A DNA stretch of 21,382 bases, taken from positions 1-21,382 of IMG/VR virus record IMGVR_UViG_3300027996_000199; one strand, given 5' to 3'. The notes beneath the pieces were generated by a model. The model was not told where the DNA came from, made no database searches, and saw only the letters and a list, made by a program, of their open reading frames with translations. Positions 7,622-19,865 of the stretch are shown here, piece after piece. How positions within the stretch are numbered: the first letter of the stretch is position 1; every line of letters begins with the position of its first letter. Source of the DNA: a virus. The position numbers and the translations under genes are program-made.

Positions 7622-7939
7622 ATGGTAACAGATGGACAGTATTTAGATGCTTTAGTGACAGTTAAAAAGTATTTGGCTCAGATTAAGAGCGAAATTAATG
7701 AAGCGGAAAACGATGTGACACGTTATTTCAATCCCGCACTTGAAAAAAAAATTGTCGATCTCGATATTAGTACTAGATTATTCAATGTATTGAGATGTCA
7801 TCAGGTCAAAACTTTAGGGGACCTTGCTAGGTACAAAGCTAATGATGTAATTCGATTTAGAAATATGGGGACTAGATCATTTAGCGAAGTTAAACTTTTA
7901 CTAAAAACTAACGGTTTAAAGTTTGATATGTTTAAATAA
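7622..7939 (+). CDS. Free-standing RNA polymerase alpha-CTD-like protein
   Basis: 105 aa. Residues 43-105 read as the C-terminal domain of RNA polymerase alpha. DISTRLFNVL aligns with the E. coli helix LTVRSANCL, putting Arg52 and Asn55 at the DNA-contacting Arg265 and Asn268; the later FRNMGTRSFSEVK aligns with TPNLGKKSLTEIK, so Asn81, Gly83, Arg85 and Ser86 match Asn294, Gly296, Lys298 and Ser299. It ends GLKFDM, like GLSLGM. These residues bind UP elements and activators. Residues 1-42 are a short helical, acidic stretch, not the alpha N-terminal domain, so it cannot assemble into polymerase as alpha does. It may bind DNA or the host sigma factor and redirect transcription. Co-transcribed with the preceding gene (38-base gap). 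Confidence 0.75.
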   Translation: MVTDGQYLDALVTVKKYLAQIKSEINEAENDVTRYFNPALEKKIVDLDISTRLFNVLRCHQVKTLGDLARYKANDVIRFRNMGTRSFSEVKLLLKTNGLKFDMFK

Positions 7940-7951
7940 TCATTATATTTG
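7922..7951 (+). promoter_or_regulatory. Promoter for the structured RNA / replication operon
   Basis: TTTG (7922-7925), 18 bases, TATATTTG (7944-7951). It overlaps the last codons of the alpha-CTD-like gene. The expected start, about 7956-7958, coincides with the first base of the outer stem of the RNA described next. Confidence 0.7.
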
Positions 7952-7956
7952 TAAAA

Positions 7957-8052
7957 CGGTCACGGGTTCAAAATAAGGTGATCAAAGGAATTATTAATAA
8001 GCCTGATAATGAAAGTAGCTTGAACCCCTACCGGATTTATCGGGCTTTTTTT
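7957..8052 (+). ncRNA. Structured leader or small RNA with interleaved stems
   Basis: A roughly 96-nt transcript is bounded by a promoter and a T-tract. Stem A: GGGTTCAA (7964-7971) pairs perfectly with TTGAACCC (8020-8027), extended across a small internal loop by CGGT (7957-7960) with ACCG (8030-8033). Stem B: AAGCCTGATAA (7999-8009) pairs with TTATCGGGCTT (8037-8047) with one G-U pair, and ends in seven T (8046-8052). The two stems interleave (A, B, A', B'), so they form a pseudoknot or compete. Stem B plus the T-tract is a terminator. The T-tract ends 7 bases before the replication gene's ATG at 8060, so this is either an attenuator controlling that gene or a separate small RNA. No known RNA family was recognised. 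Confidence 0.6.
7999..8052 (+). terminator. Terminator arm of the structured RNA
   Basis: 11-bp stem 7999-8009 / 8037-8047 (one wobble) closing a long loop, then T 8046-8052. The long loop and the interleaved stem A make it look conditional; the only local alternative is a weak 3-bp CCG/CGG hairpin at 8031-8043. Confidence 0.55.
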
Positions 8053-8059
8053 ATTCAGT

Positions 8060-8788
8060 ATGGCACAAGGAAAAAAAACATTCATATTTTATTCAGATTG
8101 GATAAATATGATTCGAGAAATGCCTGATGCGGATGCCGGTGCATTATTGAAGCACGTTTTATCGTATGTCAATGATGAAAATCCCGAAACAGATAATCTT
8201 CTTGTTAAGATGGCATTCGGTCACATGAAGCCACTTTTGAAAGCTGATTTGGAAAAGTGGGATAACATTAGAGAAAAGCGAAAAAAAGCAGGTCGAAAAG
8301 GTGGTCAAGCAAATGCTAAGCAAAAGGAAGCAAATGCTAAGCAAGTGGAAGCCGTTAATGTTAATGTTAACGTAAATGATAATGTTAATGTAAATGATTC
8401 TTTAAATAAAGAATATAGTCAGAACGTTTTGCAAACGTTTGACGACTGCCTAAAATATTTTGATGATCATCTTCATCCTAAAAATGAAAAACAGTCGGAT
8501 AAATGGAAGGACACAATCGACAAGCTGAACCGAATCGAAAAGATACCGTTTGAAAATATTGTCGATATTGTCAGGAATACGCGTGACGATCCATTTTGGG
8601 CCAAGAACTTTTTATCCCTAAACAAACTACGCCAGAAAGACAAAAACGGCATCATGTACGTCGTGAAGTTTAATGAACAAATCAAATCAAATGCAAAAAA
8701 TCAACGAACTAATTCAAGCCAGCAAGCCGTCAGCGACGAACGACTTGCAGAAATCTATTCAAAGGTATTCGCTGACAAAAAAGAATGA
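8060..8788 (+). CDS. Replisome organiser-like replication protein (DUF6291-like N terminus)
   Basis: 242 aa. Residues 1-85 have the DUF6291-like pattern: KTFIFYSDWINMIREMPDADAG near the start, LLKHVLSYVND, VKMAFGHMKPLLKADLEKW, then EKRKKAGRKGGQANAK. Many phage replication-initiation proteins start this way. Residues 85-110 are a repetitive linker (ANAKQ repeats and Asn-Val repeats). The C-terminal part, with SDKWKDTIDKLNRIEKIPFE and DPFWAKNFLSLNKLRQKDKNG, resembles the DnaD-like tail of phage replisome organisers ('F-W-x-x-N-x-x-S-x-x-K-L-R'). It probably binds the phage origin and helps load helicase. It is directly behind the structured RNA and the next replication gene overlaps its end. 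The linker-coding DNA holds candidate origin repeats. Confidence 0.7.
   Translation: MAQGKKTFIFYSDWINMIREMPDADAGALLKHVLSYVNDENPETDNLLVKMAFGHMKPLLKADLEKWDNIREKRKKAGRKGGQANAKQKEANAKQVEAVNVNVNVNDNVNVNDSLNKEYSQNVLQTFDDCLKYFDDHLHPKNEKQSDKWKDTIDKLNRIEKIPFENIVDIVRNTRDDPFWAKNFLSLNKLRQKDKNGIMYVVKFNEQIKSNAKNQRTNSSQQAVSDERLAEIYSKVFADKKE
8307..8353 (+). repeat. 21-bp tandem repeat, candidate iterons
   Basis: Two full copies (8307-8327, 8328-8348) and the start of a third; the unit begins AAGCAAATGCTAAGCAA and the copies differ at two bases. Each contains AGCA-AA-TGCT, an inverted half-site pair. They code for ANAKQ-type linker residues in the replication protein. Confidence 0.7.
8354..8395 (+). repeat. 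Seven AT-rich 6-bp repeats next to the 21-bp repeats
   Basis: GTTAAT, GTTAAT, GTTAAC, GTAAAT, GATAAT, GTTAAT, GTAAAT in tandem, encoding an Asn-Val linker. Together with the 21-bp repeats the order is iteron-like repeats then an AT-rich, easily melted tract, as at the lambda origin inside gene O. Origin function is inferred. Confidence 0.6.
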
Positions 8789-10039: not shown

Positions 10040-10504
10040 ATGATCGCTAAAATCACAATTTGCATTTCACTATTCATCCAGTCCCCTATTGACTTAGACA
10101 GAGCAACGACTTACAACCCTGAAACAAGTCAATGCGACAACGATCCGTTGACAACTGCTGACGGTAGCCGAATTGATTTAGATAAACTTGCAAATGGTGA
10201 ATTAAGATGGTGCGCTTTGTCCAGGGATTTGATTTGGGATTTAGAACGTCAGAAATTGCACGACTACGATACAAGCATTTTCCGAGGCTTTTTTCGTTTC
10301 GGTGATACAATTGTCGTCGAATCAATTTCAAGCCCTCAAATCAACGGAAAATGGTGCGTGCGTGATTGTATGAATAAAAGATACAAGCGGTCGATTGACT
10401 TTTTGTTTGATCCGCGAAATAATAACCCAAAGCTAGGCGTATGCCCTGACGTTAAAATAACTAATATATGGCACAACTATTTAAAGGCGATTGCCTTGAA
10501 GTAA
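10040..10504 (+). CDS. Double-psi beta-barrel (3D/RlpA-like) protein
   Basis: 154 aa, start ATG 10040 with leader CACTAAACAAAACACG. Conserved positions of the 3D/RlpA double-psi beta-barrel group are visible: TTYNPETSQCD (23-33), TADGSRID (39-46), ALSRDLIWDL (59-68), FGDTI (87-91), NGKWCVRDCMNKR (102-114), SIDFLF and KLGVCPDVKI. Five cysteines suggest disulfides and export, and residues 4-13 (KITICISLFI) are a short hydrophobic stretch that could be a weak signal. Relatives cut or bind peptidoglycan glycan strands. In this early position it could aid lysis or entry, or be a host-derived cell-wall protein; no other lysis gene is seen. It overlaps the methyltransferase by 37 bases. Confidence 0.6.
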   Translation: MIAKITICISLFIQSPIDLDRATTYNPETSQCDNDPLTTADGSRIDLDKLANGELRWCALSRDLIWDLERQKLHDYDTSIFRGFFRFGDTIVVESISSPQINGKWCVRDCMNKRYKRSIDFLFDPRNNNPKLGVCPDVKITNIWHNYLKAIALK

Positions 10505-11220
10505 TGAAGTCTATTCCAGACGGAAGTATAGATGCTATAATAACCGACCCTCCATACGGAACAACCGCCTGTAAATGGGATAGTGTAATTGACTTCGAGT
10601 TGATGTGGGAGCAATTGAATAGAATCATTAAACCTAATGGTGCTATTGTTTTATTCGGAAGCGAGCCTTTTAGTAGTGCTTTGAGAATCAGCAATATTAA
10701 GAATTATAAGTATGATTGGAAGTGGATTAAAAACAGATACGGTAATTTTATATTAGCCTCTTGCCAACCTATAAAAGAACAAGAAGATATTATAGTTTTT
10801 TCATTAGGTGGAGCGTCCACTACAAGTAAAATTAAAATGCAATATAACCCACAATTCACAGGTCCACAAAAAAACAATTCACAGGTCCATAGTGAAATAA
10901 AAAATAGTTTAGGAAAATCTAAAATAGGTTATGAATTTAAAAGGAATATCAATAAGGGTGCTTTTCCTAAAAATATCCTAAAATTTAATTTTGATAAAGA
11001 TAGATTACACCCAACCCAAAAACCAATAGCATTAATGGAGTACCTAATAAAAACCTACACCAATGAAGGCGAAACGGTTTTAGATTTCACTATGGGTAGT
11101 GGCTCTACTGGAGTGGCAGCTAAAAACCTTAACCGAAAATTCATAGGAATAGAACAAGACGAAAAGTATTTTAACATAGCGGAACAAAGAATAAAAGAAA
11201 CAGAATTAAAGTTATTTTAA
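10468..11220 (+). CDS. DNA methyltransferase, beta class (N6-adenine/N4-cytosine)
   Basis: 250 aa. Motif IV is DPPYGTT (residues 27-33) near the N terminus, after KGDCLEVMKSIPDGSIDAI; the AdoMet-binding motif I is near the C terminus as LDFTMGSGSTG (205-215), with HPTQKPIALMEYLI before it. That order is the beta class. DPPY is typical of amino methyltransferases; N6-adenine is more likely than N4-cytosine but cannot be settled here. No restriction partner is adjacent, so it is a solo enzyme that may protect phage DNA from host restriction or mark it. The gene looks more A+T-rich than its neighbours by eye, suggesting recent acquisition. Last gene of the plus-strand block, 10 bases from the converging tape measure stop; no bidirectional terminator was seen. 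Confidence 0.88.
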   Translation: MAQLFKGDCLEVMKSIPDGSIDAIITDPPYGTTACKWDSVIDFELMWEQLNRIIKPNGAIVLFGSEPFSSALRISNIKNYKYDWKWIKNRYGNFILASCQPIKEQEDIIVFSLGGASTTSKIKMQYNPQFTGPQKNNSQVHSEIKNSLGKSKIGYEFKRNINKGAFPKNILKFNFDKDRLHPTQKPIALMEYLIKTYTNEGETVLDFTMGSGSTGVAAKNLNRKFIGIEQDEKYFNIAEQRIKETELKLF

Positions 11221-18860: not shown

Positions 18861-19865
18861 TTACGCACCAAGATCGAAAATAGTCAGTTGATTTAAAAAC
18901 GGCCTGCATCTTTCGTTTGTCATGTCAACATATTTTTTTTCAACATCGAATCCGATGAATCTACGTCCTTCTTTTGCGCTCATGGCGCACTCTGTTCCAC
19001 TACCTGCAAACGGAACGCACACAATGTCGTTTGGACGGGAACAAGTTAAAATTAATGCTCTTGTAAGTTTTTCGGGTTTTTTTGTTGGGTGGTCGCAATA
19101 ATTTATTTCTCTTGGAAATCTCAATATGTCTGTTAATCCTAAATCATTTTTGAAATACCTCCTTTTGTGTTCAAATTCCTGTCTTAAATCTTCGTACTCT
19201 TTCCTTAAATCTTCGTACTCTTTCCTTAAATATTCGTACTCTTTCCTTAAATATTCGTTGTTCAAATATTTTCTGACTTTCAAATACTGTTCTTCTGTTA
19301 TTACGTTGTCGCCATTTAGCCAGTTTGAAACACATCCCGTTAAGCCTCCTGTTTTGCTTGGGAATAGCTTTGCAATTTCTTTTCGTGTTACTTTCGCCTT
19401 TTTAAATTCATCTTGCAAGTATAAGCTAAACGGGTTTTTCGGTTTTATATACTGCTCAATTATTTGCTCCAATCCTGTTACATCCTCTTCATTGCTATAC
19501 ATAAGTAGTCGTTCTGCTCCACGTTCTGGAAATGTTCTTCTCGTGTCCCATTCATTAGGGTTGCTTGGTTTTTCCCAAACAAGAGTGCCAATTAAATAAA
19601 AGTACCTATCTAATATTATTTGAGCATAGGCAATTTTTCTATCCATCCCCCACCAAAACAAAGTCCCATTATCCGCTAAAATCCTTTTGCATTCAATCGC
19701 CCATTTTTCAACGTCTTTTAAATAGTCGTCAAACGTTTTCCAAATGAAATCAAATTCACCTTTAACCTGAAAATAAGGAGGATCGGCAATGATAAGCTGA
19801 ACTGATTTATCTGGAATTGAATTGTCTAAAAAATTAAGGTGATGTGCTTTGTTTATTCCGTTCAT
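18861..19865 (-). CDS. DNA methyltransferase, beta class, with inserted HTH-like and repeat segment
   Basis: 334 aa. Motif IV is DPPY at 28-31, after SVQLIIA; motif I is VPFAGSGTE at 284-292, after HPTKKPEKL (259-267); so it is a beta-class amino methyltransferase. Between them, residues about 153-203 hold a segment KVTRKEIAKLF, GGLTGCVSNWLNGDNVIT and EEQYLKVRKYLN, a helical DNA-binding-like insert that probably reads the target base sequence. Residues 206-232 are a seven-residue repeat (LRKEYED and variants) likely to form a helix, encoded by a 21-bp tandem repeat. It stands alone among tail genes, with its own terminator, so it is probably a late-expressed or independently acquired gene. 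The start ATG 19865 is 34 bases from the preceding stop. The target site is unknown. Confidence 0.85.
   Translation of the reverse strand: MNGINKAHHLNFLDNSIPDKSVQLIIADPPYFQVKGEFDFIWKTFDDYLKDVEKWAIECKRILADNGTLFWWGMDRKIAYAQIILDRYFYLIGTLVWEKPSNPNEWDTRRTFPERGAERLLMYSNEEDVTGLEQIIEQYIKPKNPFSLYLQDEFKKAKVTRKEIAKLFPSKTGGLTGCVSNWLNGDNVITEEQYLKVRKYLNNEYLRKEYEYLRKEYEDLRKEYEDLRQEFEHKRRYFKNDLGLTDILRFPREINYCDHPTKKPEKLTRALILTCSRPNDIVCVPFAGSGTECAMSAKEGRRFIGFDVEKKYVDMTNERCRPFLNQLTIFDLGA
19183..19258 (-). repeat. 21-bp tandem repeat inside the methyltransferase
   Basis: About 3.6 copies of a 21-bp unit (19183-19203, 19204-19224, 19225-19245, partial 19246-19258). On the plus strand it begins CTTAAATCTTCGTACTC, and one base changes from the third copy onward (TAAATC to TAAATA). 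In frame it encodes the heptad LRKEYE(D/Y), so copy number changes stay in frame. Confidence 0.9.

Follow-up and report, generated by a model that had tools for sequence, protein, structure and literature searches.

A structured RNA of about 96 nt lies directly before the replication genes of a Bacteroidota-type phage, and its pseudoknot is an 8-bp kiss that joins the loop of a 5′ hairpin (P1) to the tip of the terminator hairpin (stem P2 capped by P3). The fold is conserved among related phages, and the original prediction of a promoter-driven, pseudoknotted, terminator-ended RNA at this place is thereby supported. With a probability of about 0.52, we predict that this leader is a transcription attenuator of the replication operon which would also yield a stable RNA of ~96 nt.

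The window, meaning the whole stretch of DNA that was analyzed, is the 21,382-nt record IMGVR_UViG_3300027996_000199, and the locus occupies its positions 7957–8052. Besides the features listed below, the window carries two N6/N4 DNA methyltransferase genes (PF01555) at 10468–11220 (+) and 18861–19865 (−).

7622..7939, + strand: upstream gene for an RNA polymerase alpha-CTD-like small protein, directly 5′ of the RNA (PF03118, E 4.8e-14)
7922..7951, + strand: promoter TTTG-N18-TATATTTG of Bacteroidota type, overlapping the 3′ end of the upstream gene
7957..8052, + strand: whole structured RNA of ~96 nt from predicted start to end of the T tract (start deduced from the promoter)
7958..7963, + strand: P1 5′ strand GGTCAC (minimum free energy (MFE) fold; covarying helix)
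7964..7971, + strand: K5, the P1-loop half of the 8-bp kiss, GGGTTCAA (covariation)
7978..7983, + strand: P1 3′ strand GTGATC (MFE fold; covarying helix)
7984..7998, + strand: linker with conserved AAAG..TT..ATT bases (alignment conservation)
7999..8009, + strand: P2 5′ strand, terminator stem (covariation)
8010..8014, + strand: 5′ side of the internal loop, TGAA motif, candidate for tandem G.A pairs (alignment conservation)
8015..8018, + strand: P3 5′ strand GTAG (MFE fold; covarying helix)
8020..8027, + strand: K3, the P3-loop half of the kiss, TTGAACCC (covariation)
8028..8031, + strand: P3 3′ strand CTAC (MFE fold; covarying helix)
8032..8036, + strand: 3′ side of the internal loop, GGAT motif (alignment conservation)
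8037..8047, + strand: P2 3′ strand (covariation)
8046..8052, + strand: T tract (T7) of the intrinsic terminator (sequence; T run kept in the family)
8060..8788, + strand: first gene of the operon, ATG at 8060, replication initiator or replisome-organizer-like protein (DUF6291; PF19808, E 7e-25)
8307..8398, + strand: iteron-like repeats AAGCAAATGCT ×3.5 (21-bp unit) and GTTAAT ×7 inside the rep gene, candidate origin

Inspection of the sequence bore out the predicted promoter, whose full pattern matches once in the window against 0.16 expected matches. Likewise correct were the 8-bp complement of GGGTTCAA and TTGAACCC, the 11-bp stem 7999–8009/8037–8047, the T7 and the ATG. The −33 TTTG box of the window is not kept in relatives; the −7 TATATTTG alone is kept, and this box belonged to the pattern by which the relatives were collected. 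Homologues of the DUF6291 protein are annotated as replication protein in Flavobacterium phages.

The MFE fold adds hairpins P1 and P3, which the original prediction lacked. Since the 14-base P1 loop starts with GGGTTCAA and the P3 loop contains TTGAACCC, the interleaved helix is a loop-loop kiss. A proposed 4-bp extension of this helix (CGGT/ACCG) had to be given up, because it clashes with P1 and P3, both of which covary and occur in the MFE fold; its pairing is also not kept cleanly in the relatives L014 and L002. The anatomy of an intrinsic terminator is present in the form of the 11-bp P2 followed by T7, from which termination itself is predicted, and this terminator hairpin needs no kiss to be stable (−15.8 kcal/mol for the window sequence). 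The single-sequence fold of the 96 nt is unremarkable by itself (z −1.4), a score that is uninformative because the kiss lies outside the fold model.

BLAST of the window DNA against named phages gave no match, and relatives were obtained via proteins and DNA patterns. Regions upstream of DUF6291 homologues show a like architecture in other letters. The DNA pattern for the family consisted of the −7 box, TAATGAA and GGATTTNNNRRG only, and a scan with it placed the element in at least 119 viral contigs. The kiss and the T tract were absent from the pattern, and the covariance model R1 omits the kiss, so that both features serve as independent tests. A T run of at least 5 (longest run) is found in 68 of 77 members. 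R1 matches the window at 7953–8051 with 68.8 bits, the window sequence itself being part of the model. Having P1, a P2/P3 terminator hairpin and a covarying 8-bp kiss, the window RNA belongs to what we call type I. Among host chromosomes, 0 of 395 Bacteroidota genomes gave a hit, a weak negative given strict filters, few scored candidates and no positive control.

For covariation, the 50 most divergent sequences were aligned, the window included, and the alignment has few gaps. Under the structure described above, 95.5% of the pair cells are standard pairs, and double changes occur in 23 of 25 pairs. The double-change cells number 322 compared with 85 in shuffles (0/500 shuffles), and pairing falls to 33–47% when the partners slide by 1–3 columns. 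All four helices covary: the kiss is 98% paired with double changes in 7 of 8 pairs, P2 is 100% paired with double changes in 8 of 9 counted pairs, and P1 shows double changes in 4 of 4 counted pairs. When every possible helix in the alignment was scanned, the kiss (5.64) and P2 (5.53) scored 20-fold higher than any other helix (next best 0.23), and no antiterminator or other alternative helix covaried. Compensatory changes in relatives had been set beforehand as the point on which the RNA could fail, and it passed strongly. The interleaved stems had been read as either a pseudoknot or a pair of alternative structures; the pseudoknot stands and the second option falls, since the terminator hairpin folds alone and covariation reveals no competing helix.

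Unpaired positions are conserved as well. Linker columns 36–48, which lie outside the search pattern, are 82–98% conserved, and TGAA (columns 63–66) and GGAT (columns 88–91) reach 98–100% each, partly imposed by the pattern. Members found by protein alone (L002, L043, L044, L077, L095 and L084) keep TGAA and GGAT; L010 does not. These linker bases and the TGAA/GGAT loop may serve in binding or in tertiary contacts.

As a control free of selection for the RNA, 60 upstream regions were picked by protein homology only. A terminator-plus-kiss score of at least 36 was obtained for 18 of these 60 regions versus 4 of 600 dinucleotide shuffles, and a score of 42 for 16 regions versus no shuffle. Most of the remaining regions hold other upstream genes, and in several the RNA lies farther upstream by one gene (L092, L006, L032). 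Two close relatives of the window rep gene (L021, L005) are without the kissing RNA; just 5′ of their DUF6291 gene stands another interleaved element, in which GAGAGG...CCTCTC-T8 overlaps GTTACT...AGTAAC.

Most of the 20 phage records searched whole (30–37 kb) contain a single copy, which speaks against a multi-copy regulon. Contig 3300005613_000224 has two ORF1-RNA-rep cassettes, one per end (L003 105–1486; L014 11225–12402), one copy standing before a DUF6291 gene and the other before a different N-terminal domain with a common C-terminal part; the kiss and stem sequences differ between the two copies. Three further observations concern kiss sequences in individual members. The gene start in L002 could pair with K3, which is absent from other members. 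At ~1395–1500 of L075 the P1-loop (K5) sequence AAATACCTACCA is repeated directly before the ATG, so that K3 could pair with either copy, and other members are without this repeat. The L140 contig fragment contains the kiss octamer GGCTTCAC or its complement four more times against 0.25 expected.

The genes on either side of the RNA nearly all share its strand. The upstream gene is usually small, ends about 12 nt 5′ of the RNA and often encodes a DnaA C-terminal-domain protein (PF08299). From the RNA end to the ATG the distance is mostly 8–23 nt, usually about 19 nt, and a further −7 box TAnnTTTG occurs in 1 of 73 such gaps. The first downstream gene varies (DUF6291, lambda-O/DnaD-like, Lin1244_N, AntA/KilAC, NUMOD4-HNH, ParB-type, small ORFs) and is followed by an ATPase or primase-like protein, so the place at the head of the replication genes is kept despite the varied first gene.

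A second structural type was collected with the pattern GGAGTAG N9-13 CGAAA behind a TATATTTG, in which the kiss was not asked for. It gave 49 contigs, 38 of them with a terminator stem and a kiss of 6–13 bases, and in several members the loops of P1 and P3 consist of the kissing bases and nothing else. RNAs with the type II internal loop GGAGUAG...CGAAA are those of L046, L047, L058, L060, L073, L076, L080, L233–L281 and L161 (complement of 21–130); L161 and L073 hold both types together. The covariation counts given above are for type I only, and in the type II alignment the kiss columns are misaligned in some rows. Cultured marine phages carry both types: type I stands before the AntA/KilAC antirepressor gene in Tenacibaculum phage Gundel_1 (R1 72.5 bits) and before the DUF6291 gene in Cellulophaga phages phi19:3 and phi13:2 (R1 38 bits), and type II lies two small genes before the DUF6291 gene in Olleya phage Harreka_1. 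For the DUF6291 phages tooticki, stinky, elemo and 11b, R1 matched nothing within the stretch covered.

The statement that no described RNA family has this layout held up against Rfam 15 and the open-access literature. With cmscan, the window and 18 member loci gave no family above the gathering threshold for the RNA, and permissive scans returned sub-threshold hits only; the sole Rfam match, DUF805b at 484–516 of L073 (49.5 bits), lies outside the RNA, 5 nt past its type I copy. The open-access literature contains no description of a kissing terminator RNA (most subscription journals and preprints lie beyond that search). Candidate structured RNAs from the human microbiome include phage-linked Bacteroidetes structures, and the kissing terminator was not found among them in the part of that source covered here (PMC8040213). 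A likeness of GGTCACGGGTTCAA to a tRNA T-arm or att site was rejected, being confined to a small clade with empty ARAGORN output. Together, the Rfam and literature results point to a new family within a broad kind that is already known, namely a structured leader or attenuator.

Several known systems share parts of this layout. In attenuators of the pT181/pIP501 type, a leader with an intrinsic terminator directly precedes a replication gene, and a loop-loop kiss is the key contact. The phage RNA resembles them in all three respects; however, in those systems the kissing partner is an antisense transcript of the other strand and an antiterminator competes with the terminator, whereas here both kissing loops belong to a single RNA and the alignment shows no covarying antiterminator. 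Inspection by eye of the minus strand opposite the RNA found no TAnnTTTG, and one sigma-70-like match is at chance level. The T4 gene 32 leader is likewise a phage pseudoknot heading a replication gene, but it is of the H type, acts in translational control and has no terminator, while the present fold includes the terminator hairpin and the first gene product varies among phages. Lambda oop, which is also short and brings its own promoter and terminator, adjoins the O-type gene and origin; it runs on the opposite strand, against cII, in contrast to the RNA described here, which is on the rep strand as rep leader. The compact pseudoknot of the pistol ribozyme also pairs a 5′ hairpin loop into a downstream stem-loop, but here K3 is in the P3 loop, P2 is the terminator, and the pistol model had no match in the Rfam scans. 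HK022 put RNA, a nascent phage RNA that acts in cis in early operons and consists of two hairpins, lacks a kiss and serves to suppress terminators farther on; the two-hairpin form and the proposed cis role are alike, whereas here the second hairpin is itself the terminator and a kiss is added.

According to the attenuator model, transcription would start at ~7957 and P1 would fold first. P3 would then form and present K3 in its loop, an 8-bp kiss would join this loop to that of P1, and P1, kiss and P3 would probably stack as a rod. Closure of P2 below P3 would, together with the U tract, release RNA polymerase and leave the stable ~96-nt RNA. As the terminator separates the promoter from the operon, and a further −7 box is so rare in the gaps, the genes from 8060 on, which lack a promoter 3′ of the terminator, would be expressed by read-through, and this need for read-through argues for attenuation. 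The level of read-through may be set by the interaction of the folded kissing leader with the polymerase or a bound factor. With no covarying antiterminator helix and a terminator whose stability does not depend on the kiss, the leader shows no switch of its own; control would thus come from a bound factor or from folding kinetics, unless there is none and the RNA is a small RNA with leak.

The fold suits this last case equally well, that is, a stand-alone trans-acting sRNA, made early in infection and binding a host protein or host mRNAs, with the replication genes served by leaky read-through or upstream transcripts. The compact promoter-RNA-terminator unit, a P1 that starts a few bases from the predicted transcript start, the conserved unpaired bases in P1 loop and linker and a terminator stable alone are all in keeping with such an sRNA. 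We nevertheless consider it rather unlikely, since the RNA immediately precedes the operon, where there is no other promoter, and matches to the kiss sequence elsewhere in the phage contigs are not enriched (8 observed vs 6.7 expected), so that trans targets of this sequence in phage contigs were rejected.

Improbable in our view is a switch that alters termination once a ligand, be it a metabolite or a protein of host or phage origin, has bound to the kiss, the linker and the TGAA/GGAT loop. The strongly conserved unpaired positions around a compact pseudoknotted fold directly 5′ of the operon would fit; however, there is no alternative helix to serve as expression platform, the downstream genes are non-metabolic, and for most sequences the search pattern had itself contained TGAA and GGATTT.

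It is more doubtful still that the transcript activates or primes an origin in the rep gene, in a position comparable to oop beside lambda ori. Iteron-like repeats do follow ~250 nt downstream, and in many phages the RNA sits between DnaA-like and O-like replication genes, but it ends before the repeats. The repeats themselves, which encode an N/V/D-rich linker of the rep protein, may represent a lambda-type origin within the initiator gene; lambda ori lies inside gene O. That the locus is only a set of chance inverted repeats or a coding leader, without any function as RNA, is already refuted by the covariation, which beats shuffles and slides; the excess of protein-picked loci over shuffles also speaks against it. 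A frame from GTG 7979 is open through the RNA in the window (by eye), but it is not kept in relatives, so a leader peptide there was rejected, and the conserved TAATGAAGTAG contains stops in most members.

To our knowledge, control of phage replication by RNA is little documented beyond enterobacterial models. The kissing-terminator RNA is common in aquatic Bacteroidota phages, and its fold is simple and testable. Tentatively, and at somewhat less than even odds, we propose that this previously undescribed, widespread phage RNA class, in which the terminator-hairpin loop kisses an upstream hairpin and which comprises at least two structural types, may be the main switch by which Bacteroidota phages commit to DNA replication, responding to a host or phage signal. 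Because it is present in cultured Cellulophaga, Tenacibaculum and Olleya phages, its role can be tested. As a natural intramolecular kissing loop within an intrinsic terminator, it would also be useful for learning how RNA tertiary contacts affect termination.
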